DNA of 64,000 nucleotides from a virus: positions 30,390-94,389 of IMG/VR virus record IMGVR_UViG_3300017917_002740, one strand, 5' to 3'. Positions 30,300-60,843 of this stretch are shown one piece after another. The translations under genes were made by a program, and so were the position numbers. Within the stretch, counting starts at the first letter, position 1. Every line of letters starts with the position of its first letter. The notes under the pieces were generated by a model, which worked only from the letters and a program-made list of their open reading frames with translations, was not told the origin of the DNA and did not search any database.

Positions 30300-30410
30300 T
30301 GGTGTGGCCGGTAGGATTCGAACCTACAGAGGCTGTGTCTAAGACGGCGCCCCATTCCCAAGTGCGTTTCGCAACGGACTGGAGGTCTACCATATTCCAC
30401 TGACGACCAC
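30300..30410 (-). tRNA. Oversized tRNA gene, isotype uncertain (Leu favoured)
   Basis: On the minus strand: 7-bp acceptor GTGGTCG / CGGCCAC (one G-T), discriminator A and an encoded CCA, a normal T arm (GTAGG-TTCGAAT-CCTAC) and a D-loop with GGAATATGGTAG. It is 111 nt including CCA, about 20-35 nt longer than normal. A good anticodon arm with loop CTTAGAC (anticodon UAG, Leu) lies directly before the T arm at 17-nt arm length, but then some 35 nt containing a small GCG-AAA-CGC hairpin sit between the D arm and this arm. Alternative: a class II tRNA with a misread anticodon arm. Confidence 0.7.
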
Positions 30411-30473: not shown

Positions 30474-31574
30474 ATGAATACCTATACGCAAATTGAACCT
30501 TTTGGTACACCGCATTTTCAAATTACCTGGGAAGCTACTTTAAAATGCAATTTGGATTGCAGCTATTGTAGCCCCAATGATCACAACAATAAGATACCTC
30601 ATCCAAAATTAGAGGACTGTCTTAAGACTGTAGACTTTCTTTTGGAATATGTCGATGTGTATATGCAGAACAAAAATCCTGCTCATCGAAATGCAGGCTT
30701 CAATGTGTTCGGCGGTGAAAGCCTTTTCCATCCAGACATTGTAGAAATACTGACTTACATTAAAGAACAGCATAAAAAATACGAACATCGCTGGACTATG
30801 GCAGTGCAGACTGTGACAAACGCTGTAGTCAAAGAAAAAATTTGGAAAGAAATTGTTCCTTTGATTGATTACTTCACTGTAAGTTATCATAGCGAAGCAA
30901 CCGTAGAACAGCAAGATTTGGTAAGACAAAATTTATTAATGCTGAAAGCAAACAACAAAAGATTTACCTGTTCTATATTGATGCATGCAGGACGATGGGA
31001 CAATTGTCAAAGCATGATACAATGGTGCAAGGACAACGATATTCCTCATCTTCCAAGACAGATAGATCACAGTTGGCATGATCTAAAATTTTGGTATAAC
31101 AAAGAACAAACACAATGGTGGAATGAACATAGAGGTATTGACACTGACATTCCCCTACACAAAAAAATTATCAATATCGTAAATTTAGACAGTCAAGGTC
31201 GTAGCTGTTGTGGAGGAACTGAGCTAAGTGTTAATGGTAATACTTCTTGTTCACAGACATACATACCAGGTAATAATTTTAAAGGCTGGAGTTGCAGTGT
31301 AAATTACTTTTTTGCCTATGTAAAACAGGTGACCAAAGAAGTATTTTTAAACAAAGATTGCATGATGAACTTTGACGGCAAAGTAGCACCTATAGGAACT
31401 GTAGATCAAGGTGCTGAAATCATAGCAGATCTAAAAAGAAATTTTGCCAACAATACTATGCCTGTGGTTACCTGTGCCAAGTCTAAGTGCTGGTGTGGAT
31501 TGTGCGCTCCTAAGGCGCACGACAGATCGACTTTCGATACTATGATGGAAAAGTATGTCACAGATACCGTTTGA
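30474..31574 (+). CDS. Radical SAM protein with C-terminal Cys cluster
   Basis: 366 residues. The [4Fe-4S]/SAM motif is CNLDCSYC (C25, C29, C32), followed by the SAM-contact GGES of FNVFGGESLFHPDI. The C-terminal part has many Cys (SCCGGTELS, GWSC, CAKSKCWCGLC), so an auxiliary cluster of SPASM/twitch type is likely. It opens the cluster's first operon and overlaps the next radical-SAM gene by 20 nt. Related to SPASM-type rSAMs, with no known substrate; peptide- or small-molecule-modifying members both exist. Confidence 0.88.
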   Translation: MNTYTQIEPFGTPHFQITWEATLKCNLDCSYCSPNDHNNKIPHPKLEDCLKTVDFLLEYVDVYMQNKNPAHRNAGFNVFGGESLFHPDIVEILTYIKEQHKKYEHRWTMAVQTVTNAVVKEKIWKEIVPLIDYFTVSYHSEATVEQQDLVRQNLLMLKANNKRFTCSILMHAGRWDNCQSMIQWCKDNDIPHLPRQIDHSWHDLKFWYNKEQTQWWNEHRGIDTDIPLHKKIINIVNLDSQGRSCCGGTELSVNGNTSCSQTYIPGNNFKGWSCSVNYFFAYVKQVTKEVFLNKDCMMNFDGKVAPIGTVDQGAEIIADLKRNFANNTMPVVTCAKSKCWCGLCAPKAHDRSTFDTMMEKYVTDTV

Positions 31575-32526
31575 TAAAATAATTAGATTCGGTCAACAGA
31601 CAATGTTAGACACTGATTTATTTTCAGTAAGCTGGATCCTGGGTAGATTCTGTAACTACAAGTGTTCATATTGCTGGCCTTATGCTCGTACAGATAAACC
31701 AGATCACTATGAGCTTGAAGTTTATCAAAGAACCATAGATGAAATTAAAACACAGTCTCGAGCAAATGGATTTACAAGATTTCATTGGAGTTTCAGCGGA
31801 GGTGAGCCCACAGCTTATAAACAATTTTTAGAAGTTGTTCGTCATCTTGACGACGGAGCAATAACACCCTATCAAAGCATACACATGACTACCAATCTTT
31901 CGCCCGGAACAAAGTGGTGGAAGTCTTGGTGTCAAGCCACAGAAGTATTACAGCGTAGAAGCATCACGGCCAGCTATCATGCAGAACATGCCAAAGAAGA
32001 TGAGTTCGGAGACAAGTGTCTAAAACTAATGAATGAAAATGTCTTTGTCACAGTTAATCAAGTTATGGTTCCTGATCAGTTCTATGAAACTTTAGAACGC
32101 TGCTATAGACTAAAATCCAGAGGAATAAATGTAACTCTAAAACCACAGAGCGATCCTACTGCCAGTTTTGTAGTCAGTGGCTACACCGATGAAATGCTAA
32201 GGATAATGCAAGAAGAATTCCAGCAACAGGTCAAGGGTGAAAATCTTTACCAAATTAGACTGTCAGACGGTACGCAAGATTATTATATAGATCAAGCAGA
32301 AAGATTCAATGCTTTTGGTTTTAACCGTTTTCAAGGTTGGAGTTGCAATAGTGGCTATCAAAGTGTTATAATTAGAGAGAATGAGGTTAAAAGATCTTAC
32401 AGTTGCCACGATAAACCTTTAGGAACTCTAACTGAAGGGTTTAAACTTTTCGAGCAACCAGCAAAATGTATTACTCCGAGCTGTGTAAGTTCGGCAGACA
32501 GCAAGGTACCAAAAAGTAAAATATGA
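31555..32526 (+). CDS. Radical SAM protein with C-terminal Cys residues
   Basis: 323 residues with CNYKCSYC (C33, C37, C40) and SGGEPTAYK (82-90). It shares the FNRFQGWSC pattern and a Cys-poor tail (CHDKPLGTL, CITPSCVSS) with its neighbour at 30474, so the two are distant paralogues. The next gene starts inside its last codons (4-nt overlap). Function unknown. Confidence 0.87.
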   Translation: MSQIPFDKIIRFGQQTMLDTDLFSVSWILGRFCNYKCSYCWPYARTDKPDHYELEVYQRTIDEIKTQSRANGFTRFHWSFSGGEPTAYKQFLEVVRHLDDGAITPYQSIHMTTNLSPGTKWWKSWCQATEVLQRRSITASYHAEHAKEDEFGDKCLKLMNENVFVTVNQVMVPDQFYETLERCYRLKSRGINVTLKPQSDPTASFVVSGYTDEMLRIMQEEFQQQVKGENLYQIRLSDGTQDYYIDQAERFNAFGFNRFQGWSCNSGYQSVIIRENEVKRSYSCHDKPLGTLTEGFKLFEQPAKCITPSCVSSADSKVPKSKI

Positions 32527-33044
32527 TTCATGTATTCGGTGATAGCTTTTCTATAGATAACAGTAACGATAGTTGGGTTACTCGCTTGAATGCAACCTCG
32601 TATTCTACCTGCGGAGCAAGCGAATACAGAATATGGAAAACTTATCAAAGCAATAAACACCTAATTAAACCAAATGACACTGTTTTATTTTGTCATACTT
32701 TTCCGTATAGAGTTTTTTTAAAAAACAACAGTACATTGTTAAGCAGATTGTTACCTTCTCATCCTTTTTGCGATATCATCATCAATGATATCATTGCTAA
32801 GAAAGAATCAAAATTTATAAGTGTTTTAAAAACTATATGGGACGAAGATTATTTTTATGACACTTACCTGTTACTTGTTAATGATTTAAAGAAAGTTCCT
32901 AATAGCTTTCACTTTACTTTTTTTGAATCTACTCTAATGCATTCATTTTACGAAACATGGATAAACAACAAAGGAAACATCAATCATTTAACTGTAAGTG
33001 GTAACAATGCTGTTTATAGGGACATTAAAAAGTGGATAGATTAA
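32523..33044 (+). CDS. SGNH/GDSL-type hydrolase
   Basis: 173 residues starting IHVFGDSFSID, where S8 is the nucleophile of the GDS block, and ending NINHLTVSGN, where N152 and H155 fit the block V catalytic pair. SGNH enzymes in such loci cleave or transfer esters/acyl groups on sugars or small metabolites. One of a tandem pair with the next gene (13-nt overlap). Confidence 0.72.
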   Translation: MIHVFGDSFSIDNSNDSWVTRLNATSYSTCGASEYRIWKTYQSNKHLIKPNDTVLFCHTFPYRVFLKNNSTLLSRLLPSHPFCDIIINDIIAKKESKFISVLKTIWDEDYFYDTYLLLVNDLKKVPNSFHFTFFESTLMHSFYETWINNKGNINHLTVSGNNAVYRDIKKWID

Positions 33045-33652
33045 TAGCATTCGGATCATCATACACATACGGCGACGGATTACCAGATACGTTTCCCGAG
33101 AATACTACGCCAAGCAAACTGGCATGGCCAAGTATTTTAGCCGCTGAACTTAATTTGGAATGTGTTAATATGAGTTCGAGGGGTGCAAGTAATAGAAAAA
33201 TATGGCACGACATTCTGCATTTTAAATTTGAACCTAATGATGTTGTTTTTATATTATGGGCATTTCCAAATCGACATACTATTTTTGATTCTAAGTTAGA
33301 ATTTAGAAACTTATTGCCGTCAGGAGTTAATAAATCAAACGAAGCTGATGCCTATTATCGCTATATCTATACCGAGTATGATTCGGCATTGACTACTAAA
33401 CTGTATATCAATCACGCCAACCAACTGATATTGTCTAATAACATACAGGTACATCATTTATTACTGAACATAGAAAGCAAAGACCTTTTTGAATTAGGTG
33501 GCCAGAAGATAGAATTTATTCCTTTGGCATTTGAAGATTCGTATAAAACAGCATATCCTTTAAGTATTGATAAACTACATCCGGGTGAAAAATGTCATAG
33601 AGCGTTTGCCAAAGATATTTCGCAGTGGTTAAAACAGCAAGGATTATTTTAA
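33032..33652 (+). CDS. SGNH/GDSL-type hydrolase, second copy
   Basis: 206 residues with AFGSSYTYGDG (block I, with GSS in place of GDS; S10 as nucleophile), SSRGASNRKIW (block II Gly/Asn), VVFILWAF (block III) and D180-K-L-H183-P, the catalytic D-x-x-H pair. The better-preserved of the two hydrolases. It may remove or transfer an acyl group in the pathway (inference). Confidence 0.78.
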   Translation: MDRLIAFGSSYTYGDGLPDTFPENTTPSKLAWPSILAAELNLECVNMSSRGASNRKIWHDILHFKFEPNDVVFILWAFPNRHTIFDSKLEFRNLLPSGVNKSNEADAYYRYIYTEYDSALTTKLYINHANQLILSNNIQVHHLLLNIESKDLFELGGQKIEFIPLAFEDSYKTAYPLSIDKLHPGEKCHRAFAKDISQWLKQQGLF

Positions 33653-33653
33653 T

Positions 33654-34250
33654 ATGCAAATTGATTTAAAACATCTACACCACTGGATGCAGGCTATAAG
33701 ACAAAGTCCGGATCCTATAAGAACAATGGACGCATTCTGGCAAGGGCAATTAAACAGTAAAGTATGGCTGATTAATGAATTAAGAAAACATGTCGACAGA
33801 TTTGTTACTGTGGACATACACGGTGGTTGGGTTGGAGTGTTAGCCAGTCTTATGTTCCAAAGTAATTTGCCTATAAAATCTATTCGAAGCATAGACATTG
33901 ATCTTCAGTGCGAACCTTTGGCCAAAGAAATGAATAGGTTAGAAGAAACATCAGGTAGGTTTACAGCCGTTACTGCAGATATGTGTGATATTGTTAGCGA
34001 TGCTGATGTAGTTGTTAACACCAGCTGTGAACATATAACACAAGAACAATACGATCGATGGTTAGCTGGATTGAAGTCAACCAGTATATTGGTATTACAG
34101 AGTAATAATTTTCCCATACCAGAACATGTAAGAATAGTAGAGAGCTTGCAGGAGTTTATAGATCAGTCCGATGTAGAAGTACTATGGTCAGGCGAAATGC
34201 AGTTGCACCTTTATACCAGATATATGATTATAGGAAAGAAGCGTGTTTAA
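33654..34250 (+). CDS. Class I SAM-dependent methyltransferase-like protein
   Basis: 198 residues with VTVDIHGGWVGVLASLMF in place of the Gly-rich motif I, an acidic motif II loop (IRSIDIDLQCEP) and VVVNTSCEHITQEQYDRW, which matches the motif IV region of a phage methyltransferase family. The motif I is glycine-poor compared with typical members, so SAM binding is likely but unproven. Follows the hydrolases by 1 nt and overlaps the next gene by 8 nt. Confidence 0.6.
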   Translation: MQIDLKHLHHWMQAIRQSPDPIRTMDAFWQGQLNSKVWLINELRKHVDRFVTVDIHGGWVGVLASLMFQSNLPIKSIRSIDIDLQCEPLAKEMNRLEETSGRFTAVTADMCDIVSDADVVVNTSCEHITQEQYDRWLAGLKSTSILVLQSNNFPIPEHVRIVESLQEFIDQSDVEVLWSGEMQLHLYTRYMIIGKKRV

Positions 34251-35343
34251 TTTCAAAGAATTAAAAAGTGTACACATAGAGATATCTAACAGATGTCAAG
34301 CATCTTGTCCTATGTGTCCAAGAAATATAAACAGCGGCATAGAGAATCCATTAATTAAAAATGCTGATTGGACTCTGGAAGAATTTAAAACTGTGTTCAA
34401 TCAGGAAGTATTGGCGCAGTTAGAAAAGATCTCCTTCTGCGGAACGTTTGGCGATCCAATGATGAATGGCGATCTTATTGCTATGTGTCAATATGTAACT
34501 GATAATGCTCCCCATATGGACATAAGAATACACACCAACGGCAGCGCCAGAAATATCAAATGGTGGAAACAGTTGGCCAAATCACTGCCTAAAAAGCATC
34601 TTATTGAATTTGGCATAGATGGGTTGACAGATACTCATCATTTACACAGAGTAGGAACCAACTTTGAAAGAATAATCGATCATGCTCGAGCAGTAATTGA
34701 AGAAGGTGCCAAAGCTTCTTGGTTGTTTATTAGATTCAAGCACAATGAACACCAGGTAGAACAGGCTCGTGCTATGAGCAAAGAACTGGGATTTGATCAG
34801 TTTGTACTAAAAAATACAAGAAGATTTACAGACGAAAAATTTATAGTGTTGGATAGAGATGGTAAGTTTTCACACTTCTTAGAAATGCCCACGGGTAATG
34901 TGGTAAACTTTGTCAACAAAAAAGATCTCGAAGATCATCAGTCGTGGCCCAATGCCACTGACATCAACTGTTTTGCACTGGATTCAAATGAAATTTATAT
35001 CGATGCCAATTTCACTGTGATGCCTTGCTGTATTATTGCTGCCTTTTTGTATACAAATTATGACAATGAAATACAAAAACAGCACGGACTCTATGACGCC
35101 GCAACATCTGTAAATAGTGTAGGCGATCAGATACAAAAACAAGTTTACGAAATAATCGATGAACTTGGCGGATTGAACAGTTTGGATGCAAGACAGCAGG
35201 GAATAAAACAGATCATCAACAGTGATCGATGGCAGACTATATGGCATGAAAAGTGGAACACCAACACTTCGGCCTGCTGTACTGTAATGTGCAGTGCAGA
35301 CAGTCCTTACACTAAACTAAAAGAACAACTAATTACTGAATAA
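34243..35343 (+). CDS. Radical SAM protein (tandem copy 1)
   Basis: 366 residues from GTG 34243, which lies over the previous stop and has AGGAAAG in front; its start FNFKELKSVHIEISNRC parallels YTYKEIRVLHVELTSNC of the next gene. The triad is CQASCPMC (C18, C22, C25). Shared with its neighbour: FCGTFGDPMM, HTNGSARNIKWW, EFGIDGLTDTHHLHRVGT, RFKHNEHQ. C-terminal VMPCC and ACCTVMC form a possible auxiliary-cluster site. Substrate unknown. Confidence 0.88.
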   Translation: MFNFKELKSVHIEISNRCQASCPMCPRNINSGIENPLIKNADWTLEEFKTVFNQEVLAQLEKISFCGTFGDPMMNGDLIAMCQYVTDNAPHMDIRIHTNGSARNIKWWKQLAKSLPKKHLIEFGIDGLTDTHHLHRVGTNFERIIDHARAVIEEGAKASWLFIRFKHNEHQVEQARAMSKELGFDQFVLKNTRRFTDEKFIVLDRDGKFSHFLEMPTGNVVNFVNKKDLEDHQSWPNATDINCFALDSNEIYIDANFTVMPCCIIAAFLYTNYDNEIQKQHGLYDAATSVNSVGDQIQKQVYEIIDELGGLNSLDARQQGIKQIINSDRWQTIWHEKWNTNTSACCTVMCSADSPYTKLKEQLITE

Positions 35344-36434
35344 TGTATACCTATAAAGAAATAAGAGTGCTGCACGTAGAATTGACATCTAACTGTCAAG
35401 CATCCTGTCCTATGTGTGCCCGCAATCATCATGGTGGTTTAGAGAATCCACTTCTAAAAGTCAATGATATACCGTTAGAAGTATTCAAGAAAATTTGTCC
35501 CGGTGACTTTATCAAACAATTGCACACAATTACCATGTGCGGTAATTTTGGTGATCCTATTTTACATAAAGACTTAATCAAAATTGTTGAATATATCAAA
35601 CAAGAAAACGTAGGCATACACATAGACTTACACACTAACGGCGGTGCGAGAACTGTTAAATGGTGGAGAGAGTTGGCCAAGGCATTGCCCGAGCGTCATG
35701 TCGTACAGTTTGGTATAGACGGACTGGCTGACACTCATCACTTGTATCGAGTAGGAACAAGTTTCGATAAGATCATTGAAAATGCCAAAGCCTTTATCAG
35801 TGAAGGCGGTAAGGCAAGATGGAATTTTATAACCTTCAAACACAATGAACATCAACTGGAGGCCTGCAAACAGATGGCCAAGGATTTAGGGTTTGATAGT
35901 TTCTATGAAAAACAGACCAGCAGATTTATCGGTAATCCTTGGTTTGATGTCTACGATAAAAATGGTAATACCACTCATAGATTAGAAGGGCCCACTGAAC
36001 AAAAATTAATTTTTGTTGATAGAAAAACTGTGGAAAATTACAAAGAAGTTATAGCTCGTGCTAAAATAGTCTGTGAAGTAGAAGAACAAAAAAGTGTTTA
36101 CATAGATGCATTAGGTTATCTGTTCCCTTGTTGCTTTGTAGGTGCAACACCTTATATACATTCCTATGAACATCAGTTAGTCCATGCTTTTAGATTAGAT
36201 AGCCAAAACAGCCTTAACCAGTTATTGGATAAGTTTGGCGGTATAGAATACTTTAATTTGCAAAACAGATCTATACAAGAAATCATAGACAGTGACAATT
36301 GGCAAACTCTTTGGAATCAAAGTTTCGAAGGTAATAAATTACACGTCTGCGCCAGAACTTGCGGCAAGTTCGAGGAACCAACGATCAGTCAGTGTAGAGA
36401 TCAATTTTTAGATTTAGAGAAATTCAATGAATAA
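35343..36434 (+). CDS. Radical SAM protein (tandem copy 2)
   Basis: 363 residues, paralogue of the preceding gene over the full length, with CQASCPMC (C18, C22, C25), MCGNFGDPIL, HTNGGARTVKWW, QFGIDGLADTHHLYRVGT and a C-terminal LFPCCFVG ... CARTCGKF. The start codon overlaps the previous stop by one base (TAATG). A tandem duplication that may have split substrates or form a heteromer. Confidence 0.88.
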   Translation: MYTYKEIRVLHVELTSNCQASCPMCARNHHGGLENPLLKVNDIPLEVFKKICPGDFIKQLHTITMCGNFGDPILHKDLIKIVEYIKQENVGIHIDLHTNGGARTVKWWRELAKALPERHVVQFGIDGLADTHHLYRVGTSFDKIIENAKAFISEGGKARWNFITFKHNEHQLEACKQMAKDLGFDSFYEKQTSRFIGNPWFDVYDKNGNTTHRLEGPTEQKLIFVDRKTVENYKEVIARAKIVCEVEEQKSVYIDALGYLFPCCFVGATPYIHSYEHQLVHAFRLDSQNSLNQLLDKFGGIEYFNLQNRSIQEIIDSDNWQTLWNQSFEGNKLHVCARTCGKFEEPTISQCRDQFLDLEKFNE

Positions 36435-37845
36435 AACCTTTTGGCTACAGCCTGAAACTACCCAATTGGGTGATTGGCAAAAACAAATAACTGATCTCAC
36501 AGGCAGTCCCAGTTTCTGTGTGCTGCCCTGGATACACTTGGCCACACGTCCCAATGGTGATATGCGTATATGTTGTGTGGCCAATGCCAGTGGTGCAGAC
36601 AGCGGAGACTATACCGTAGGTTTGGTCAAGATGGAAGATGGTCAGCCCGCTAACTTTGGTCATAATTTACCTACAGAAGCATTTAACAATGACTACATGA
36701 AATCTGTACGTAAAACAATGTTGGCTGGAGAAGTACCTGCCAGTTGTTTGAAATGCTATGAAGAAGAACAACAGGGTATAGCCAGTAAACGAATATGGGA
36801 AACAGGCACGTGGCATCTGCAAGAACAGATCGATATCAAAGAACTAATAGCTGAAACCACAGAAGATGGCACAGTACCATATAATCTTCGATACTTAGAT
36901 CTTAGATTAGGACATACCTGCAATTTAAAATGTATCATGTGTTCACCTCATGACAGTAGTATGTGGGTCCCTGAGCATAAGAAAGTGTTTCCTATATTCC
37001 AAAGTCCGCTGATCAAAAAACAAATGGATTGGGATCCCAATAAGTTTGACAATAATTGGCATGAAAATCCCAAGTTCTGGGAAGAAATATTCGAACAGAT
37101 TCCTAACATCAGGCAGTTGTATTTTGCAGGTGGAGAGCCTTTATTGATCAAAGAACACAAACTGTTTCTCAAAGAAATTATACGTAGAGGCTATGCCAGC
37201 CAGATAGGTCTAAGATACAATACCAATGGCATTTTAGTCAATGAAGAAATTATAGAAATCTGGGAACACTTTAAAAAGGTCAAAGTGGGCATTAGTTTAG
37301 ATGCCATAGGAGATCGAGTAAACTATATTAGATATCCCACAGAGTGGTCTGTGGTAGAACAAAATCTCTGGAGATTAGAAAACACCAGTGATAAAATACA
37401 GACCAATATTGCTCTGGCTGTACAGATATTAAACATCAAACATGTTCCAGATTTCATCAAGTGGAAAGTTCGCAGCGGATTTAAAAAATTAAATTTTGAT
37501 ACCAATGCCGCAGGTCAAGTTGCTGGCGGCGGATTAGTGGGTGTTCACTTGTTGTGGATTCCTACTTGGCTAAGTCTACGTGTATTGCCCAAAGAAGATA
37601 AGGCAGAAGTTAGAGAACTATTTGTAGAACTGCAACAATGGTTATGGGACAACTATACCAAAGATCCCGAATTCTGGGAAAAGAATCCGTATGGATGGAA
37701 ACGTTGGGAAGGTATACTGGATTGGATGGATGCAGAAGATCACACAAATCTACTACCAGACTTTCGAGAGTATATCGCGACCATGGACGCTCAACGTGGT
37801 ACAGACTTTAAAACTGTATTTCCGGAATTAGCTCATCTGCTATGA
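36427..37845 (+). CDS. Radical SAM protein with N-terminal twitch-like module
   Basis: 472 residues. An N-terminal Cys module (C31 in FCVLPWIHLATRPNG, C49-C50, C107 and C110 in ASCLKCYEEE) resembles the twitch/SPASM auxiliary-cluster region, placed before the radical-SAM core rather than after it. The core has CNLKCIMC (C165, C169, C172), FAGGEPLLIKEH, and NTNG; the C-terminus ends with RGTDFKTVFPEL. Three such proteins occur here (also 37842 and 39949). Phage databases label this type twitch-domain radical SAM; the substrate is not known to me. Confidence 0.86.
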   Translation: MNKTFWLQPETTQLGDWQKQITDLTGSPSFCVLPWIHLATRPNGDMRICCVANASGADSGDYTVGLVKMEDGQPANFGHNLPTEAFNNDYMKSVRKTMLAGEVPASCLKCYEEEQQGIASKRIWETGTWHLQEQIDIKELIAETTEDGTVPYNLRYLDLRLGHTCNLKCIMCSPHDSSMWVPEHKKVFPIFQSPLIKKQMDWDPNKFDNNWHENPKFWEEIFEQIPNIRQLYFAGGEPLLIKEHKLFLKEIIRRGYASQIGLRYNTNGILVNEEIIEIWEHFKKVKVGISLDAIGDRVNYIRYPTEWSVVEQNLWRLENTSDKIQTNIALAVQILNIKHVPDFIKWKVRSGFKKLNFDTNAAGQVAGGGLVGVHLLWIPTWLSLRVLPKEDKAEVRELFVELQQWLWDNYTKDPEFWEKNPYGWKRWEGILDWMDAEDHTNLLPDFREYIATMDAQRGTDFKTVFPELAHLL

Positions 37846-39083
37846 AAAAAATCTGTGTCTTGCCTTTCATGCACACACTGATATTGCCTAACGGTGATAT
37901 TAATCTTTGCTGTAACAGTGAAGTTCGTGAAGGCATGCCAAATGTACAAGATCAAGGATTAGATAATATTCTTAATAATCCTCATCATGTAGAAATACGC
38001 AGACAGATGATAGCTGGTGAACAACCTGATATATGTAGGCGCTGTTGGGACAATGAAAAATTAGGTATGAAAAGTTATCGACAACAGATGAATTTTACCT
38101 ATATGAAATATTTTCCTCGTATATTGCGCACAGAAATATCTGGAAAGATTCCATTAGGAGTAAAATACTTCGATGTGCGTTTTAATAATACCTGTAATCT
38201 AAAATGTGTAATGTGCTCCAGCAGTTACAGTTCTGCATGGATTGACGATGAAAAGAAACTGATGCCGATGATCAAAGACGACTCTCTCAACGGCGAATTA
38301 AAATACAGAATCGATCACTATGACAAGGAATCTTTTAAGTGGGCTAAAGATGACGACATTTTAGAAACAATTATTAAAAATGCTGAAAGTTTAGAACGTA
38401 TTCATTTTGCTGGTGGAGAACCATTATTGGCCAAACAGCATGATACATTAATTAAAGAATTAATTAGAATAAAATTAGCACCTAAATTATTTTTAAGTTA
38501 TAATACCAATGCTGAGTTTATCACGCAAGAGACTTTAGACCTGTGGAGTCATTTCAAAAGAGTAAGAATATTTTACAGTATGGATGACATCGGTGAACGT
38601 AATGAATACATTCGGTTCCCCAGCAAGTGGTCAACGCATGAGAAAAATTTAGAGTTGATCGAAAAAAGCAGCCCTAAAAACATCGAATGGCGCATAGCTG
38701 CTACTATCAGTGTTTTAAATGTCGCATACATTCCGGAATTTGTGGAGTGGAAAATATCTCGAAACTTTAAAAACTTTCATAACAGTTGGATGGATGGTGC
38801 TTTGTTGTATGCCAATATTTTAGAATATCCCAAATATCTTAATATGAATGTATTGCCAAACAACGTCAAAGACAGTATCATACATAAATTAGAAACACAT
38901 CAAGTTCCTAAAAAATATAAAAAACATTATGAAAGCATCGTCTATAATATGAGAAATTATATCTACGACGAATCCCACACTGAACACTTACCTGTATTAA
39001 AAGAATATCTGGAAGGATTAGACAGTGTCAGAGGAACTGACTACAAGAAAACGTTTCCGTTAATTGGCGACTTGCTTGGTTAA
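37842..39083 (+). CDS. Radical SAM protein with N-terminal twitch-like module, copy 2
   Basis: 413 residues: N-terminal Cys module (CVLPFMHTLILPNGDI, C23-C24, ICRRCWD at 64-70), core CNLKCVMC (C118, C122, C125), FAGGEPLLAKQH, C-terminal RGTDYKKTFPLI. A paralogue of the previous gene with a shorter N-terminus. Last gene of the first plus-strand operon; it ends convergently with the gene at 39060-39956, overlapping 24 nt. Confidence 0.86.
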   Translation: MKKICVLPFMHTLILPNGDINLCCNSEVREGMPNVQDQGLDNILNNPHHVEIRRQMIAGEQPDICRRCWDNEKLGMKSYRQQMNFTYMKYFPRILRTEISGKIPLGVKYFDVRFNNTCNLKCVMCSSSYSSAWIDDEKKLMPMIKDDSLNGELKYRIDHYDKESFKWAKDDDILETIIKNAESLERIHFAGGEPLLAKQHDTLIKELIRIKLAPKLFLSYNTNAEFITQETLDLWSHFKRVRIFYSMDDIGERNEYIRFPSKWSTHEKNLELIEKSSPKNIEWRIAATISVLNVAYIPEFVEWKISRNFKNFHNSWMDGALLYANILEYPKYLNMNVLPNNVKDSIIHKLETHQVPKKYKKHYESIVYNMRNYIYDESHTEHLPVLKEYLEGLDSVRGTDYKKTFPLIGDLLG

Positions 39084-39956
39084 CGGTATATCAGCAGCAC
39101 AGGTACACCAATCTCTACTACAGGTTATAGCCTGTAATTGTTCAGTAAATGTACCTTGATAAATGTTGCCCAAGCTGCCGCCTACACGACAGGTAGCACG
39201 ATATACTTCACCGTCCCAGTTAATCATAAGACTTTCGATACCTGCATTACAAGTCCAGCCTTTGAATTGATTTAGATGTTTTTTAATAACATCGTTGGCA
39301 TGCATGATTTTTTCACCGTCGATGATACAGTTGGGTTTTACAGTAGCATCTTGAGCAAGTATCCATTCGAGATCTTTGCCATCATAACGCATGTCATCAA
39401 ACACATTGTGATCACCTTCAGTCCAGCGTATTCTACGCACAGCAAATTTTACACCTATTTCTTGGAATTTTTTAACCACAGTTCGAACATGTTCCATTTT
39501 ATCATGATGCGCCATGACATTTACAAAAAAGTCTCGTTCGGTGCTGTCGTAGTATTTTAGAATAGTGTCGACTATGCGAGTCCATTCGTGTTCAAAATGT
39601 AAACTGAAAATAATATGATTCCAATACATCTCATTGTCCAAGTACCAACGATAACCCCGTGTGCCATTTGTAGTTACATTTACCCAAAATACGTTTTTGC
39701 GTTTCATGTAGTCTAATAGATCTTCTATGTTAGGATGCACACAGGGCTCGCCTCCAGTTAAACTGATGCGTAAAGGTTTATCGAGCTCACAAAGCCTATC
39801 TACAGTTTTTTCCAAGATATTGATATCTGTGTGAGGGCTGAAGTTGTCATGTATGCTGGCTGGGCAATATGAGCAATCGTAGTTGCAGCGTTTGCCAAGA
39901 TTCCATTCTATCTTGATTTGATCTTGATGAGGCCATGCAGATGTTATTTTAAACAT
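39060..39956 (-). CDS. Radical SAM protein, short SPASM-like
   Basis: 298 residues with CNYDCSYC (C24, C28, C31), SLTGGEPCVHPN, TTNGTRG and a C-terminal Cys group (GWTCNAGIES, YRATCRVGG, CSRDWCTCAAD). Short for a SPASM enzyme, but the C-terminal Cys residues suggest one auxiliary cluster. Last gene of the minus-strand operon that starts at 42782; it overlaps the upstream gene by 8 nt. Confidence 0.85.
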   Translation of the reverse strand: MFKITSAWPHQDQIKIEWNLGKRCNYDCSYCPASIHDNFSPHTDINILEKTVDRLCELDKPLRISLTGGEPCVHPNIEDLLDYMKRKNVFWVNVTTNGTRGYRWYLDNEMYWNHIIFSLHFEHEWTRIVDTILKYYDSTERDFFVNVMAHHDKMEHVRTVVKKFQEIGVKFAVRRIRWTEGDHNVFDDMRYDGKDLEWILAQDATVKPNCIIDGEKIMHANDVIKKHLNQFKGWTCNAGIESLMINWDGEVYRATCRVGGSLGNIYQGTFTEQLQAITCSRDWCTCAADIPLTKQVAN

Positions 39957-41205
39957 ACTGTTTGAATTCCGGAGTGATATCTGTGAAACTTTGATTTCTG
40001 GTTTGATCTAATCTACGATTAAATTCCACACAGTCTGTCCATAGATCGCTGCGATCTCTGGCTCGTAGATAGTTTTGATTATCTTCTATCTGTCTTAGAG
40101 TATAGTTTAGCAGCATTGGGTGTTTTTTAATAATTTCATAATCCAATATTTTGTTCTTCATAGCTTCCAGTCTATCATAAGCCACATCAACTAACGGACG
40201 AGGCAATACTTGAGCTGATAACACGTTAGGATACTCAACTCTATGAGTATGGAACACTATGCCAAGGTCATTTAAAAAGTATTCGATCATTTTGTCTAAG
40301 ATTAGAATGTTACTGATTTGTACAGTAACAGCACCGACTATTCTACTTATGTTTGGTATAGTTTGTATCTGTTTGATGTTATGAACTAATTCAGCCCAAG
40401 ACGCATTGCCACGTATGTACTCATAACTGTCGCCAATACCGTCTATACTGACATTGACCGCTATGCTCTTAAACTTAGGCCAGTATTCCCATATAGTTCT
40501 ATTGCTCTTACCTAACATAGACAAGTTAGTTGCATACTTGATTTCGATTTGATTACCGTATGGAGCCAGCATATCAAGTATTCTATAATGCTGTGGATCC
40601 ATTAGAGGTTCACCACCAGCAAACTCTACACGTCTAAAATGCGGTAAATTCTTTTCTAAACTTGCCCACCATTCTGGATTGTCCTGGAACTTGTCTAAGA
40701 ATGGTTTTTCTTTGAGATTGTGTTCCTTGACAATATGGAACATAATATTATTTTCTTTTTCGTAGAATTCTTCTACCTGATCCCAATCGTTCCAAGATGT
40801 ACTGTCCATAGGATGGCACATGCGGCATTTGAGATTACACAGATTATTGAGTTTTAATTCCATTGTGGGAATTTCAAAAGGCATCGTGTAATCATGTTGC
40901 ATCTTAGACAGTGCATTAGGATATAGATTAATACGTGCTTCTGGTATTTCTCCCTTGATATGACGCTGGCGCAGACTTTCTACACCTTGATCCTCTAATG
41001 AGAAACAAGGCTCGCACTCTTTAGGACGTTCGCCAATTAGGACCTGCCTGCGAATACGCTGCATAGTCTCGCCATTCCAATGATATTCAAGTGGTGCTTG
41101 ATCGATGAATCCAATAGGATGACTGCGACAACAGACACAGATAGCACCGTCTTCACGTGTTGCTAATCCTGTAAAAGGATGCATACAAAATGTTTTACTT
41201 TGCAT
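39949..41205 (-). CDS. Radical SAM protein with N-terminal twitch-like module, copy 3
   Basis: 418 residues from ATG 41205; the frame extends to 41262 inside the upstream gene, but 41205 gives the same start (QSKTFCMHPFTGLATREDG) as its paralogues. N-terminal Cys C7, C23, C25-C26, C64, C67; core CNLKCRMC (C123, C127, C130); FAGGEPLMDPQ; VNVSIDGIGDSYEYIRG. It overlaps the PP-loop gene by 11 nt, so the two are translated together. Confidence 0.85.
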   Translation of the reverse strand: MQSKTFCMHPFTGLATREDGAICVCCRSHPIGFIDQAPLEYHWNGETMQRIRRQVLIGERPKECEPCFSLEDQGVESLRQRHIKGEIPEARINLYPNALSKMQHDYTMPFEIPTMELKLNNLCNLKCRMCHPMDSTSWNDWDQVEEFYEKENNIMFHIVKEHNLKEKPFLDKFQDNPEWWASLEKNLPHFRRVEFAGGEPLMDPQHYRILDMLAPYGNQIEIKYATNLSMLGKSNRTIWEYWPKFKSIAVNVSIDGIGDSYEYIRGNASWAELVHNIKQIQTIPNISRIVGAVTVQISNILILDKMIEYFLNDLGIVFHTHRVEYPNVLSAQVLPRPLVDVAYDRLEAMKNKILDYEIIKKHPMLLNYTLRQIEDNQNYLRARDRSDLWTDCVEFNRRLDQTRNQSFTDITPEFKQYV

Positions 41206-41935
41206 TGTCAATAGCCCACTGTCTTTCTTTACACCAGAAACATTTACCGCATGTCGGAACATATTGTCCTGGTGTGTATGTTTGATAATCTATCTCTTTG
41301 AATTCGCCTTCGCAACTACGAGTCATCTCAAATAACGACATGAGATCTAATCTTATATATTGTTTAACTACCCAAGATTTTTCAACAAATCTAAAAGGAT
41401 GTATAGCCCACTTGTTCATATGTTGCATAATCCTTAGATGCTGATTATCTTCTGATGGTTCTATATCTCTTTCAACCATGCCATCGAAATCATGTCCTCT
41501 GGGATTGCGTGTTACAGCATTATAATAAGCATCGCAGTTTTCCCAATGACAGATATATTCAGCAAATGCTCGTTGCTCAATATTATCTCCGCTGACTAAT
41601 TTGTTATATTCATCTTTGAGAGACGGACCAATATTACCATATTCTAATTCTGGTGCAATAAAATTTGTATGTCTATAAAAGTTTATATTAGGAAATTTAA
41701 CTTTCATCCAATTAAAAATCTTTAAACTATCCCAACTCTGCCAGGGTCTTGTTTTCCACATGCGAGTATGGCTAATACAATGTATTTCAAAACCTTCTAT
41801 TTTTTTGTTAGTAATAATATCGCATAACAAGTAGGTCATTAAAGCACTGTCTGCACCGCCACTAAGGCCTATTGCAATTCTACGCCAGTGTGTGTCGAAT
41901 GGAATTACTACACCATCAATGTTGTAGTTGAGCAT
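41195..41935 (-). CDS. QueC/ExsB-like PP-loop ATP pyrophosphatase
   Basis: 246 residues with the PP-loop SGGADSALM (25-33), a HTRMWKT segment and a C-terminal CGKCFWCKER, close to the QueC zinc-site pattern. It is not the queC at the left edge and is too divergent for a certain substrate. PP-loop enzymes adenylate a carboxylate or amide oxygen, then add ammonia or sulfur. Sits between a PLP-type enzyme and a twitch rSAM in one overlapping operon. Confidence 0.75.
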   Translation of the reverse strand: MLNYNIDGVVIPFDTHWRRIAIGLSGGADSALMTYLLCDIITNKKIEGFEIHCISHTRMWKTRPWQSWDSLKIFNWMKVKFPNINFYRHTNFIAPELEYGNIGPSLKDEYNKLVSGDNIEQRAFAEYICHWENCDAYYNAVTRNPRGHDFDGMVERDIEPSEDNQHLRIMQHMNKWAIHPFRFVEKSWVVKQYIRLDLMSLFEMTRSCEGEFKEIDYQTYTPGQYVPTCGKCFWCKERQWAIDNAK

Positions 41936-42782
41936 TTTCTAAATACCTTATCAGCGGACTGACACCTACAGGTTCACCGTTGCGCAAAGCCAGATGTATA
42001 CTTCTCGTAGGAGTTAATTCGAAGTCTCTGCAGACTTTGTAATAGCGTTCACCGTGTGTAAGCCATAGGTAATCCGAAGGAAGATTTCTTACAAAGTGTA
42101 GACCGATCATTGCCAATGCACGATTGTTCATACGAAAGTCGTTCATAATGGTAATGGCATCTGGTTTAGTTTCTTTGGTCCATCTAAGTCCAATTCTATT
42201 CCACCCCAGTCCTAAACCTTTGCTTAGGCTAATACCAACAGATACCACAGCAGGGTGATCAAAATTGAAATCAACAGAGCGGCTACACGTGATCCATGCT
42301 CCGTCGATGTGTACTGGTATATTTTTCTTAATACATTCATCTAATATTTCTCCCATGTCAGGATGAATTCTTCCTATTTGCGGAAACGGTAATGCTATGA
42401 TTAATGGAACTCCAGGTATCAGCGATCCTATATCTTTGACCGCTGTGGCCAATTTTAATCTTTCGTGATATCTATAATCTCCTGAGATAACCTGTACAGG
42501 TCCATTCATATATACAGTATCAATAAATTGAGTACACCCGATGATTATGTCTTTTCTTGTGTAAGAATCAAGACCAGTAATTTGGTTAAACGGGCTATTT
42601 AAAATCCATTGTTCAGCTTCTTGTTTAAAATTGTCGTAGACTGTGTCAGAGATATCTTTGTCTAACTTCCCACTGAGAACTTCCAAAATTAGAGATTCAA
42701 TTTTACGATCGCTGAGTGTCTGTGGTCTATCGATTTCCAAAAAGTCGCTGCTGTACTCTGGAGCAATTTTATTTCTAATCAT
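41916..42782 (-). CDS. PLP-dependent fold-type I enzyme (aminotransferase-like)
   Basis: 288 residues. IPVHIDGAWITCSRSVDF contains the Asp (D160) that binds the pyridine nitrogen, and VGISLSKGLGLGWNRIGLRW the PLP-lysine (K188), as in class I/II aminotransferases and decarboxylases. It is about 80-100 residues shorter than typical and may be reduced. First gene of a four-gene minus-strand operon, with CTTAAATA 4 nt before the ATG. Overlaps the PP-loop gene by 20 nt. Confidence 0.75.
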   Translation of the reverse strand: MIRNKIAPEYSSDFLEIDRPQTLSDRKIESLILEVLSGKLDKDISDTVYDNFKQEAEQWILNSPFNQITGLDSYTRKDIIIGCTQFIDTVYMNGPVQVISGDYRYHERLKLATAVKDIGSLIPGVPLIIALPFPQIGRIHPDMGEILDECIKKNIPVHIDGAWITCSRSVDFNFDHPAVVSVGISLSKGLGLGWNRIGLRWTKETKPDAITIMNDFRMNNRALAMIGLHFVRNLPSDYLWLTHGERYYKVCRDFELTPTRSIHLALRNGEPVGVSPLIRYLENAQLQH

Positions 42783-42820: not shown

Positions 42821-43489
42821 ATGCTCAACTCTACCAATTATACAGTACCTCAAGACATACTACAACAGGCAGTAAATTCTATTCCTGGTATCGATTCTCG
42901 CTTGTCGTTAAATCAGCCAACTGGTAGATTTTTTAATGACCCGTGGGAACTCAAACCCGAGTTCAAAGGCACAGTTTGGGAAACTATATTGAATATTTTG
43001 GATGAACCAAAAGGCGAAGCTCGATTAATTAAATTAACACCAGGTGAATCATATCCCAGCCATGCTGACATTGACGATCGCTGGCACCTTGCTCTAACAG
43101 GAAATAACTCTTATCTAATAGATTTAGAAAACTGTGTGATGCACCGAACAGACAAAAATGGAATATGGTACAGCATGAATGCAGGTCACAGGCACACAGC
43201 AGCAAATTTTGGCAGTGAAGACAGAATTCAGTTGGTAGTTCGAAAATTATTGCCGATGCCAAATATTAAAAATCCGGTTGAAGTTGCTATCACTTTAAAA
43301 ACAGTAGTTGAAGATCGTAGATTTATATTCGACGATGTAATTAGTCCGTGGTTAAATTATGCTTACAAAAAAGGAATAGTGGATAATTTTAAAGGTGAAG
43401 ATTTAATTGCTACTATGACAGTAGAATCAGATCATGTTGATGAATTAACAGAATTAACCAAAGAATATTTTGTGTTGGCCATAAAATGA
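42821..43489 (+). CDS. 2OG/Fe(II) oxygenase-like, aspartyl-hydroxylase type
   Basis: 222 residues. ARLIKLTPGESYPSHADID gives H81-x-D83, followed by VMHRTDKNGIWYSMNAGHRH (H123/H125) and R135 (SEDRIQLVV), matching the aspartyl/asparaginyl beta-hydroxylase fold (HxD...H...R). The substrate is unknown. Operon head; the next gene starts in its last codon. Confidence 0.72.
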   Translation: MLNSTNYTVPQDILQQAVNSIPGIDSRLSLNQPTGRFFNDPWELKPEFKGTVWETILNILDEPKGEARLIKLTPGESYPSHADIDDRWHLALTGNNSYLIDLENCVMHRTDKNGIWYSMNAGHRHTAANFGSEDRIQLVVRKLLPMPNIKNPVEVAITLKTVVEDRRFIFDDVISPWLNYAYKKGIVDNFKGEDLIATMTVESDHVDELTELTKEYFVLAIK

Positions 43490-44184
43490 ATATAGATAAT
43501 TGGACACCTTTTTATAAAATCAATCCAGATGATGGGCAGCTTATAGAAACAAATTTGATTTATACGCCATTGATAAGCCCAGACGGTAAAATATTCTGTA
43601 TGAATTTTGACCATCAGCATTCTTATCAAAACGAACAATTAGCACATTGGTTACCTCATAGGCCTTACTATACCAAAGAAATGGTCAACTTCTTTTTTAA
43701 TAGAGAACTAAAATATCTTACGGTATTTGCCAACAGATCTTGGGCACCTAAGGTATTAGAAATAGACATAGAAAAACAACAGATCTTTTTTGAATGGTCT
43801 GGAGAAACCTGTAATCAAATAGTTTACACAGACAAAAAGATTGAAGATTATTGTCCTGATTGGAAAGCACAGATGTTGTCCATACTAAAAGACATAGTTG
43901 TCAGCGGCTACTACAAAACCAGTTTGTATCCTCACTGTTATTTTATTAGCAATGGTCAATTAAAAACTTTTGACTTTTACGGTTGTGTAGAAATCAAAGA
44001 TCCCTATGTGTCTATAAATGATATTAAAGGTATGATCGGAGAAACATCTGGTCCTCGATTTGAAGCAGCAGTCAAGGACAATATGTTAAATGTTGAAATA
44101 CTGTTTAAAGATGCTCTAAAAACTTGGGTTAAATGGCCCGACGATGTACTGCCTATGTTTTACGAGGAGTTATTTGGTGATTAA
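43486..44184 (+). CDS. Kinase-fold-like protein, paralogue of 51222-51926
   Basis: 232 residues with a two-part sequence like small kinases: an N-terminal beta-rich part (APKVLEIDIEKQQIFFEWSG) and a C-terminal YKTSLYPHCYFISNGQLK then FDFYGC that lines up with the HxN/DFG region of APH/Bud32/Rio-type kinases, but without a clear catalytic Asp in the first position. It resembles the gene at 51222-51926 over most of its length. Either a degenerate kinase or a binding protein. No family recognised. Confidence 0.5.
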   Translation: MNIDNWTPFYKINPDDGQLIETNLIYTPLISPDGKIFCMNFDHQHSYQNEQLAHWLPHRPYYTKEMVNFFFNRELKYLTVFANRSWAPKVLEIDIEKQQIFFEWSGETCNQIVYTDKKIEDYCPDWKAQMLSILKDIVVSGYYKTSLYPHCYFISNGQLKTFDFYGCVEIKDPYVSINDIKGMIGETSGPRFEAAVKDNMLNVEILFKDALKTWVKWPDDVLPMFYEELFGD

Positions 44185-44761
44185 ACTCGTAGGCAATTTT
44201 AATAATTTAATCAACTGGAATGACGTTGTCTCGCACCTCGAAGACACAGAACAGCCTATTGTAAAAAGAGCAGCACCTGAGTATTGGTTAGAACCTACTA
44301 TATTAGAACCAGGATATAACAGTTCTGGTACTGAAAGAAACTTAGATAAAGAAATGTGCGATAGTTGGGTAGCTGCCAATTACTTTTTTGATTCGGCAGT
44401 ATGGTTAGTATATCGAGTCGGTGTACATTATCCGCAGTCCTTAGAAGATTTGATCTGTCAGCAATTAAACATCTCAGTAAATTGGTCTGTGATTAATAGA
44501 GTTGATCCTGGACGCACAGTTCCACTGCACATAGATCCTGACGATAATCCAGAATTTGATGGAGATAAAAAAGTAAGATTCATCTGTCAGATATCTCTTC
44601 CTGCTCGTGGACAGGTTTTAACAGTTGGTGATCAAGCATTAACGAATTTGCAGGTAGGGGATATGTATCAATGGGATAATTATTTAGAACAACATTCTGC
44701 TGCCAATGCTGGATTAACTCCGGTATATTATTTTTCTATTGAGGGATTCAGTCGTGATTAA
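44177..44761 (+). CDS. 2OG/Fe(II) oxygenase-like
   Basis: 194 residues from GTG 44177, where GAGGAG lies 7 nt upstream and decides the start against a more distal in-frame ATG (44144). RTVPLHIDPDDNPEF gives H118-x-D120; H173 (EQHSAANAG) is the third ligand; VGDMYQWDNYLEQ is a typical late strand. The usual oxoglutarate Arg after the last His is not obvious. Pairs with the next gene. Confidence 0.65.
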   Translation: MIKLVGNFNNLINWNDVVSHLEDTEQPIVKRAAPEYWLEPTILEPGYNSSGTERNLDKEMCDSWVAANYFFDSAVWLVYRVGVHYPQSLEDLICQQLNISVNWSVINRVDPGRTVPLHIDPDDNPEFDGDKKVRFICQISLPARGQVLTVGDQALTNLQVGDMYQWDNYLEQHSAANAGLTPVYYFSIEGFSRD

Positions 44762-45263
44762 TTGGGATGAAATTATCGGTAGTCTTTTTAATGGTGTGCC
44801 TATTACTGCTGATAAAAGTAAATGGAATCTTTCAACCCCCGGCTACTTAGAAATTTACAAATCATGGGAAGATGCTAAGTTTAATATGAGCGCAATTAAA
44901 TGGATTAATTATTATCCCAGAACACACTATCCAGAAGAAGTAGATACTAAGATGTGTGAGCAGTTGGGTATCAATAAATTACGAGCTTGGATTAGTAGAA
45001 TAGATCCTGGTTATTGCGCACCTTGGCATTGGGACGTTGACGACAATGAAGAACAATATCTTAGTCTTGGAGAAATACAAAGATACAGTTGTTTTATCAG
45101 CAAACCTGCCAATGGGCAAATGTTTCAGTTAGGCAATCAGTATTATACTGCGCAGCCTCAAGGTACTATTGTTAAATGGGACGATTACAAACAATGGCAT
45201 GCTGGAGTTAATGCTGGGACTACTTCTAAGTTTATGTATCACATTATGGGGTATAGGCACTGA
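44754..45263 (+). CDS. 2OG/Fe(II) oxygenase-like
   Basis: 169 residues from GTG 44754, with GAGGGA before it. CAPWHWDVDDNEEQY gives H92-x-D94 and YKQWHAGVNAG the third His (H149). It resembles the previous product (ISRIDPGYCAPWHWD vs INRVDPGRTVPLHID) over the whole length, so the two arose by duplication. Its end overlaps the convergent 45244-45765 by 20 nt. Confidence 0.65.
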   Translation: MINWDEIIGSLFNGVPITADKSKWNLSTPGYLEIYKSWEDAKFNMSAIKWINYYPRTHYPEEVDTKMCEQLGINKLRAWISRIDPGYCAPWHWDVDDNEEQYLSLGEIQRYSCFISKPANGQMFQLGNQYYTAQPQGTIVKWDDYKQWHAGVNAGTTSKFMYHIMGYRH

Positions 45264-45765
45264 TCTGCAGCGTTAATCTTGTAGCCATACTAATATTAAC
45301 TACTCCGTGATAGCACATGGGGTCATCCCATAAAAACAAATCACCAGCTTTGTAATCAGCTAACAGATAATTATCATAGACAAAAACGTGTCCAGGTTGA
45401 TAATCTAACAAAGGCATAGTCCATCTTTGACATTTTGAAACTTGTGTGACGTGAGGATCAAAATGCATGGGCTGCATCTGACCAGGTTTTAATTTAATGA
45501 TCCACCAATGGTATTCACCTTCGATATCTATAGGCATTTTAATATCTAAATGTTTTAAACAATCTGTATTCTTAGTATACTGGCAGAAGTGATGATTCCC
45601 AGCAGGATAACCAGCTTGTTCTATAGCTGTACGTGCTGCATCAAATTCAGGAGTACCTCTCCATTTTTCAGGTTGATACACAGGTGTAACATCACCATCG
45701 TTGTTAAGTAGGATGTCTAATAGTTCTGGAGTAATCCAGTCTCGATAATTGCCTATGAGTTTCAT
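45244..45765 (-). CDS. 2OG/Fe(II) oxygenase-like
   Basis: 173 residues: MQPMHFDPHVTQ (H101-x-D103), DYKAGDLFLWDDPMCYHGVVN (H153) and R163, the HxD...H...R pattern of prolyl-hydroxylase/AspH-type folds. The start KLIGNYRDWIT parallels IKLVGNFNNLINW of the 44177 gene. Shares the last five-gene minus operon with two radical SAM genes. Confidence 0.7.
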   Translation of the reverse strand: MKLIGNYRDWITPELLDILLNNDGDVTPVYQPEKWRGTPEFDAARTAIEQAGYPAGNHHFCQYTKNTDCLKHLDIKMPIDIEGEYHWWIIKLKPGQMQPMHFDPHVTQVSKCQRWTMPLLDYQPGHVFVYDNYLLADYKAGDLFLWDDPMCYHGVVNISMATRLTLQISAYTP

Positions 45766-46568
45766 TAATACGACTCTATATGATCTATGCCTAACTTTTT
45801 ACGGAATTCGTCTGTGAACTTTCCGTCAATGCGCAGACTATAGCTGGGCTCCATAATTCGTTCACCACCATGCCAGTCTTGATCATTCCACCATGCGGCA
45901 CGAGTGTTTAGATATATTTTGTTTTTGTGTTCAGGGTCCCAGATGTAAAATGCTTTCTTTGTATTGGGTCTTATGTGTATGAATTCATTACGATGAGGAA
46001 ATGTAACATTCATACCGTTCTTGGCATCGAGGTCTCTATGTTCGAAAGGAATGCCATCTGCTTCACAATGGAAAAATATAACACGTCCGATATGCTCGAA
46101 TAAATTTTGATCAATAAGCTGTTCGACCCATTTAACTACATTAGGAAAATAAGCAGCTTCTGGAGTTAACTTACGAGGAGCAGTACGATCGTCCCAAGAA
46201 CCTTCTTCCCATAGGAAATAATAAATGTACGGGTCATATGCGCCCATGGCCATTTTTAAGAATCTTGTGAATTTGTTTCTCTGTTGATAATTGCCAAAGT
46301 CTCGGTACAACGGCATTCCAGCAACCTTGATAGGATCATCATCTGGCAATGCTAAGAATTCATCTTTGGCCTTGTATATAGGTTTCCAGTGAGGTTGATA
46401 ACTCATTCGCTCAAAGGTAAAGCCCGGGGCCATCCATGTACCTTCTTTGGCATATTCTCTGGCTTCAGCAAAACCTCTAATGATTTCAGGCTGTAGTCGA
46501 TCAAACTCAGCCATGTCTAAGTAAGACTCTAAATCAAAATAAGGTTGATGATTAATACCTTTGATCAT
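45765..46568 (-). CDS. 2OG/Fe(II) oxygenase-like, aspartyl-hydroxylase type
   Basis: 267 residues. RVIFFHCEADGIPFEHRDLD gives H177-x-D179; DWHGGERI contains H233; R246 follows (SYSLRIDGK). Overlaps the radical-SAM gene by one base at each end (46568 and 45765), so both genes must be translated in sequence. The catalytic arrangement is that of the AspH/cupin 2OG family. Substrate unknown. Confidence 0.68.
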   Translation of the reverse strand: MIKGINHQPYFDLESYLDMAEFDRLQPEIIRGFAEAREYAKEGTWMAPGFTFERMSYQPHWKPIYKAKDEFLALPDDDPIKVAGMPLYRDFGNYQQRNKFTRFLKMAMGAYDPYIYYFLWEEGSWDDRTAPRKLTPEAAYFPNVVKWVEQLIDQNLFEHIGRVIFFHCEADGIPFEHRDLDAKNGMNVTFPHRNEFIHIRPNTKKAFYIWDPEHKNKIYLNTRAAWWNDQDWHGGERIMEPSYSLRIDGKFTDEFRKKLGIDHIESY

Positions 46569-51176: not shown

Positions 51177-51180
51177 GCAA

Positions 51181-51212
51181 TATTTATTGGCAGTAATAAC
51201 AGCATATAAATA
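51181..51212. promoter_or_regulatory. Divergent late promoter pair
   Basis: AATAAATA on the minus strand (51181-51188), 4 nt from ATG 51176, and a perfect T4-type TATAAATA on the plus strand (51205-51212), 9 nt from ATG 51222. Supports ATG choice for both genes. Confidence 0.65.
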
Positions 51213-51221
51213 TTGCACACC

Positions 51222-60792: not shown

Positions 60793-60824
60793 ATTAATAA
60801 CTCCTGGAAATTTCCTGTCTAATA

Positions 60825-60832: not shown

Positions 60833-60843
60833 CCAGCCAAAAA

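Follow-up and report, generated by a model that had tools for sequence, protein, structure and literature searches.

Two pairs of tandem radical SAM (rSAM) genes in an uncultivated virus of bacteria are old, intact duplicates whose products most likely decorate a surface sugar coat. The source contig has 94,389 bases, and the window, the whole stretch of 64,000 nucleotides analysed here, covers its bases 30390-94389. In the reading that we place first, tentatively and at a little short of an even chance, the genes belong to a modular tailoring cassette directed at a surface glycan, in which each paralogue of a pair has its own position or intermediate to act on under the direction of the phage.

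The two pairs, A and B, are made up of the following genes.

34243..35343, plus strand: A1, upstream member of pair A, rSAM protein with its auxiliary-cluster domain at the C-terminus (PF04055 36.9 bits)
35343..36434, plus strand: A2, downstream member of pair A, rSAM protein with its auxiliary-cluster domain at the C-terminus (PF04055 51.6 bits)
36427..37845, plus strand: B1, N_Twi_rSAM protein, twitch domain N-terminal (NF033640 398 bits; PF04055 45.8 bits)
37842..39083, plus strand: B2, N_Twi_rSAM protein, divergent paralogue (NF033640 353 bits; PF04055 48.4 bits)

The earlier note had described four rSAM open reading frames in a row with overlapping ends, and this description holds: all four score above the curated cut-off of the Pfam Radical_SAM model (PF04055, 29.5 bits), and the ends overlap by 1 nt (A1/A2), 8 nt (A2/B1) and 4 nt (B1/B2). 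The upstream neighbour, the MT gene, overlaps A1 by 8 nt. The two pairs of tandem paralogues were likewise seen by BLASTP, with 41% identity over 353 aa between A1 and A2 (E 1.5e-105) and 31% over 451 aa between B1 and B2 (E 5e-82), and no cross-pair match was found among the four proteins. The full-length cut-off of the N_Twi_rSAM model (NF033640, 170 bits) is passed by B1, B2 and a third protein, B3. A1 and A2 score below it, with 48.2 and 41.9 bits, and pair A is thus a family other than N_Twi_rSAM. The SPASM model (PF13186, cut-off 21.5 bits) matches B2 at 37.0 bits and A2 at 21.4 bits, just under the cut-off; A1 and B1 are not listed.

The scale of the system is larger than the note had supposed. 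The four genes are real, but the run is part of a 29-kb cassette with 13 rSAM genes, among them the third family-B member on the opposite strand (B3, 39949-41262), which had been missed. Thirteen rSAM matches were found on the contig, 11 of them above the Pfam cut-off. The cassette occupies bases 30474-59637 and packs 31 genes so tightly that 153 of its 29,164 nt are intergenic. Its other genes and its two borders are, from left to right:

30300..30410, minus strand: left border, tRNA-like RNA with no anticodon loop (covariance model R1, E 5.1e-18, single match on the contig)
30474..31574, plus strand: r1, rSAM protein (PF04055 29.7 bits against a cut-off of 29.5)
31555..32526, plus strand: r2, rSAM protein, first gene of the conserved core (PF04055 43.6 bits)
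32523..33044, plus strand: GDSL/SGNH-like protein, by neighbour and by eye; no family match
33032..33652, plus strand: GDSL-like hydrolase (PF00657 25.1 bits, cut-off 23.6)
33654..34250, plus strand: MT, methyltransferase-like by eye, core gene between r2 and A; no family match
39060..39956, minus strand: r3, rSAM protein (PF04055 45.8 bits)
39949..41262, minus strand: B3, N_Twi_rSAM protein, third family-B member (NF033640 321 bits)
41195..41935, minus strand: PP-loop ATPase-like protein, SGGxDS and CxxCxxC by eye (TIGR02432 20.7 bits, well below cut-off)
41916..42782, minus strand: PLP fold-type I enzyme-like protein, by eye; no family match
42821..43489, plus strand: aspartyl/asparaginyl hydroxylase-like protein (PF05118 22.9 bits, cut-off 22.6)
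43486..45263, plus strand: three genes, starting at 43486 (k1), 44144 and 44739 (2OG oxygenase-like by HxD...H, by eye); no family match
45244..45765, minus strand: 2OG oxygenase-like protein, by eye; no family match
45765..46568, minus strand: u267, conserved cassette protein of 267 aa; no family match, homologues of 37-86% identity in relatives
46568..47455, minus strand: D1, rSAM protein (PF04055 35.9 bits)
47452..48489, minus strand: rSAM protein with HMPTM zinc ribbon (PF04055 61.8 bits, PF23545 55.3 bits)
48486..49127, minus strand: 2OG-Fe(II) oxygenase-like protein (PF13759 25.5 bits, just under the cut-off of 27)
49169..50305, plus strand: class III aminotransferase (PF00202 140.7 bits)
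50289..51443, minus strand: D2, rSAM paralogue of D1 by BLASTP (PF04055 22.7 bits, below cut-off)
51222..51926, plus strand: k2, homologue of the k1-type cassette protein; no family match, homologues of 53-59% identity in relatives
51907..53919, plus strand: C1, B12-binding-type rSAM protein (PF04055 36.0 bits; NF033712, KedN5, 169 of 700 bits)
53909..54481, plus strand: small protein between C1 and C2, an ORF of 190 aa; no family match
54472..56538, plus strand: C2, B12-binding-type rSAM protein, 45% identical to C1 (phmmer to TokK, E 9.4e-38)
56479..57855, minus strand: cassette protein of 458 aa; no family match, matches at 22-29%, homologues in Bdellovibrionota arrays
57842..58570, minus strand: aspartyl hydroxylase-like protein (PF05118 29.0 bits)
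58567..59637, minus strand: TauD-type oxygenase (PF02668 45.0 bits)
59701..60840, minus strand: right border, receptor-binding-type protein with an Mtd_N domain (PF18454 38.7 bits, cut-off 26.3)

Pairing of rSAM paralogues recurs within the cassette. BLASTP identified D1 and D2 (46568/50289), which are 51% identical with three genes between them, and C1 and C2 (51907/54472), which are 45% identical. Both C1 and C2 (164 of 700 bits) miss the cut-off for a KedN5-type B12 rSAM C-methyltransferase. The structural-region gene 23987 has its likes in a variety of phages, for the most part those infecting Pseudomonas and Sinorhizobium.

The core of the cassette is kept in relatives. Of the 68 phage loci with both r2 and B1, 60 have MT and A between these two genes; r2-MT-A-B1 is followed by r3-B3 on the other strand and then by a changing gene set. 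Each of the 18 related contigs tested has 5-15 rSAM matches. Among the accessory genes in relatives are those for DegT, GT8, a sulfotransferase, a tryptophan halogenase (313 bits; L015 18829-20412) and another rSAM protein, 514 aa long. On another contig the cassette is adjoined by sixteen tRNA genes in 4 kb (L068 76-4124). A run of about 14 rSAM-related genes (L124 1-14800) is filed as Rickettsiales MED657 and is possibly phage or misbinned DNA.

The borders can be seen without the cassette. In contigs L306 (position 1079) and L334 (position 2790), the tRNA-like RNA lies 75 and 52 bases from an Mtd_N gene, after which comes a phosphoesterase gene that in L306 is 82% identical to that of the window; no rSAM gene occurs within 6 kb on the Mtd_N side of the RNA. 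Since both borders stand there side by side, the cassette is a dispensable, modular insert. L263, L322 and L323 are likewise sites where the RNA adjoins an Mtd_N or a phosphoesterase gene and rSAM genes are absent from the surroundings.

The left-border RNA is 96-118 nt long. It combines a 7-bp acceptor stem with a long, class II-like variable arm and a canonical T arm, and ACCA is encoded in 43 of 44 copies. The position of the anticodon arm is taken by a hairpin with a tetraloop or extended loop. Copies at the same border include L078 857-956, L031 3015-3132 and L037 7362-7457, among others. Covariation across 19 sequences is strong: 99.5% of cells pair, 15 of 23 pairs show compensatory change, and none of 500 shuffles scored as high. 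Single-sequence folding energies are weakly better than those of shuffles. In 41 of 44 copies a -10 box is placed at -12 relative to the first acceptor base, and 35 also have a good -35 box at 17 bp; from this placement the RNA is probably leaderless, with transcription beginning at the first acceptor base. Rfam and ARAGORN searches of the window did not detect it, and Bdellovibrionota gave weak matches only, probably ordinary tRNAs. A scan with the motif alone found 116 loci; r2 adjoins divergently in 89-90 and about 26 hold other cargo, so it is the border, and not the rSAM genes, with which the RNA is associated. It poses a question separate from that of the rSAM cassette.

The earlier note had taken the pairs for recent duplications. 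Comparison across phages, the means of dating that it proposed, speaks against this, as A1 and A2 sit in separate clades common to many phages. At least 597 relatives of A1 were found in the viral collection and 80 were kept. In the resulting 99-row tree a clade of 39 rows (support 100/100) contains A1, and a separate one of 16 rows (95/94) contains A2. A1 and A2 are 61% and 74% identical to their orthologues in other phages and 41% identical to each other. Constraining them to be sisters costs 233 lnL units (p-AU 1.1e-40), and recent duplication of pair A was rejected on the tree and the AU test. Pair A is an old duplication. When bacterial relatives are added, the A copies of phages group together (SH-aLRT 94), next to a clade mainly of Bdellovibrionota, so the A split occurred within the phage line, before these phages diverged. 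The placement of a further clade, A0, relative to bacterial A varies between trees and shifts to the bacterial side in the AU-test tree.

For pair B a recent duplication is unlikely. B1 is nearer to Bdellovibrionota B1 (48%) than to B2 (31%), and phage and Bdellovibrionota B1 form a clade that excludes B2 (97/96), whose branch is 1.7 changes per site long. A phage-only origin of B2 is compatible with the data (p-AU 0.108), and a split before or after the phage/bacterial divergence is allowed. B1 orthologues occur in most relatives and are nearly universal; for B2 no close relative was found, and its pattern matched none of the viral contigs. The outcome that the note had named as refuting it thus holds in one sense, the members of each pair belonging to different orthologous groups, yet each pair remains within one family. 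Recent duplication giving extra dosage or redundant, decaying copies has the tandem position in its favor and nothing more; with the tree positions of both pairs, identities of 41% and 31% and purifying selection in the A clades against it, it can practically be dismissed.

Both copies of each pair are intact. In family A, C18/C22/C25 (CxxxCxxC) and C244/C336/C340 are invariant in an alignment of 77 sequences, and in family B, C118/C122/C125 (CxxxCxxC) and the auxiliary cysteines are invariant in 53; the window copies are included in both. Nothing therefore marks either copy as a partner without catalytic function. Purifying selection acts within each A clade, with dN/dS of 0.01-0.09. In relatives, gene ends overlap at 84 of the 86 junctions between two A genes or from A to B1, by exactly 8 nt in 52; such overlaps are not chance, and translation is probably coupled. 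In mixed tandem pairs, A1 lies upstream of A2 or A2b in 17 of 18.

The note had also suggested heteromers. Adjacent, overlapping genes in a conserved order are what an obligate heteromer of two duplicated subunits would show, but many phages have just one A copy before B1 (in 32 cases A1 stands directly before it) and thus do without a second. Given also that B2 lacks a close relative though B1 is nearly universal, and that both copies keep full cysteine sets, obligate pairing is improbable. Cysteines, dN/dS, junctions and single copies, all features of sequence, favor distinct roles over dosage or obligate heteromers, and action on different positions of one substrate would fit the side-by-side order and the purifying selection. 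Against this main reading, the positions that separate A1 from A2 at 85% conservation amount to five columns.

Bacterial counterparts give the main, though partial, ground for a glycan substrate. A search of bacterial genomes found relatives of A at 28-41% identity over most of the length, many in Bdellovibrionota MAGs, and r2, A and B1 occur together in Bdellovibrionota chromosomes. The r2 orthologue, at 49-54%, is patchy, being carried by 9 of 144 Bdellovibrionota genomes. These loci share the homologous core with the window (r2 47-54%, B1 mostly 44-49% identical); unlike it, they are chromosomal, lie in some cases within polysaccharide loci and belong to genomes with up to 33 N_Twi_rSAM matches. 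In genome G068 the core is about 4-8 kb from a sugar epimerase, a sugar-1-phosphate transferase (Bac_transf, 197 bits) and a CapD-type enzyme (396 bits), and in G151 it is near DegT (316 bits) and GT2. Three of the nine genomes (G141, G082, G151) have GT2 genes at up to about 10 kb from the core, seven genes in all, where the number of GT2 genes in the whole genomes would predict about 0.7. The other six core loci have no GT2 within 10 kb, which counts against the glycan reading, as does the window's own cassette, in which no glycosyltransferase or sugar-nucleotide enzyme was identified.

Bdellovibrionota genomes hold 12-33 N_Twi_rSAM matches, and many of these stand close together in arrays that extend over tens of kb (G019:C1:745-775k, G020:C192:22-55k, G026:C15:638-665k, G028:C34:146-192k). 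Some of the G028 matches carry in-frame stops.

Confident AlphaFold models of A2 (pLDDT 95.4) and B2 (pLDDT 91.0) were compared with known structures. The A2 model resembles SPASM/twitch enzymes acting on peptides (SuiB, SkfB, anSME) and on sugars or nucleosides (BlsE, DesII, BtrN), with VIA Z of about 18 to SuiB, SkfB and BlsE; BlsE is the best Foldseek match. For B2 the matches cover the rSAM part, and whole-length Foldseek matches are weak. The family-B N-terminus matches the twitch of BtrN by sequence profile (E 9e-6). BtrN and BlsE act on sugar-type substrates, and these matches of family B and A2 thus argue for the glycan, as do DegT, GT8, sulfotransferase and tryptophan halogenase in the cassettes of relatives. 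Against it, the peptide enzymes score structurally as high, so that in the comparison of A2 peptide and sugar enzymes tie.

A second explanation is that the SPASM/twitch rSAMs, aspartyl hydroxylases and oxygenases of the cassette modify side chains of a peptide or protein; the target would be RiPP-like or belong to the virion, as the product of the adjoining Mtd_N gene might. SuiB, SkfB and anSME are among the best VIA matches of A2 (Z 17-18.6), aspartyl hydroxylase-like genes are present, and the Mtd_N gene adjoins the cassette. The RiPP-maturase models are all far under cut-off for the cassette proteins (best 62.7 of 380 bits), and the conserved small-ORF families of relatives lie outside the cassette, leaving peptide or protein modification unlikely, if the strongest of the alternatives. 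A RiPP cluster was rejected, the 153 nt of gaps giving no space for a precursor and holding no conserved small ORF; a precursor elsewhere is possible. In a bolder version, a radical-enzyme assembly line adds a novel decoration to the phage's own receptor-binding protein or virion, the ancient pairs act on successive positions, and the cassette is exchanged whole between the RNA and the Mtd_N gene; we consider this a long shot.

A third explanation, that the product of the cassette is a small molecule or a modified nucleotide (a toxin, a signal, a DNA hypermodification or an antiviral-type nucleotide), seems less likely again than peptide modification. It draws on the weak structural likeness to BlsE, MoaA and viperin, the thymidylate synthase gene just left of the cassette, the TokK-like and HMPTM-type rSAMs and the halogenase in a relative. 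No viperin or MoaA model comes near its cut-off, however, and the core is found in bacterial polysaccharide loci.

rSAM-rich phage modules are a known kind. Campylobacter phages CP220 and CPt10 carry 11 and 12 rSAM genes, including an exchangeable block of five (PMC2853527), and pelagimyophages gain rSAM cassettes in a hypervariable host recognition cluster by the tail fibres, the freshwater members being described as lacking rSAM genes (PMC7029224). These Campylobacter phages have an A-family relative at 26%. Their block likewise lies beside tail genes; in CP220 it comprises five rSAM genes, an amidinotransferase and two nucleotide-diphospho-sugar transferase folds. No amidinotransferase is among the annotated genes of the window cassette, although relative L094 has a weak ADI-type match. 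The pelagimyophage island, which lies between VrlC and gp14 and contains tail fibres, is similar in gaining rSAM cassettes. Pelagibacter phage Mosig EXVC030M has MoaA-like genes, TauD, AspH and an ArnB-like aminotransferase beside a tail fibre gene; it differs in having three MoaA-like genes in the region shown, against 13, and no B1 match. The position of CP220 and Mosig modules beside tail genes also speaks for the glycan. Among 50,697 named phage records, r2, MT, B3, u267 and the Mtd_N gene had no match, B1 had one partial match (39% of its length), and B2 had only matches of about 22-25% identity, in Vibrio phages. What is new is how old the pairs are, that core and borders are defined, and that polysaccharide loci of Bdellovibrionota are linked to the cassette.

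By homology, the CxxxCxxC cluster of these enzymes would split SAM reductively to give a 5'-deoxyadenosyl radical, which would abstract hydrogen from an unreactive carbon. In family A the auxiliary cluster is C-terminal and in family B it sits in the N-terminal twitch; it may bind substrate or accept an electron. Tandem paralogues with different specificities could then serve different positions or successive intermediates of one pathway, with the oxygenases, the aminotransferase and the methyltransferase-like protein as likely partners. The substrate, less certainly, would be a surface glycan or its activated sugar, modified either on the virion or on the host, where the change could for instance keep out competing phages. 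rSAM-rich phage modules have so far been reported without explanation. A defined core, its borders, cassette-free contigs and a chromosomal counterpart that some genomes have in polysaccharide loci make a function in surface chemistry testable.
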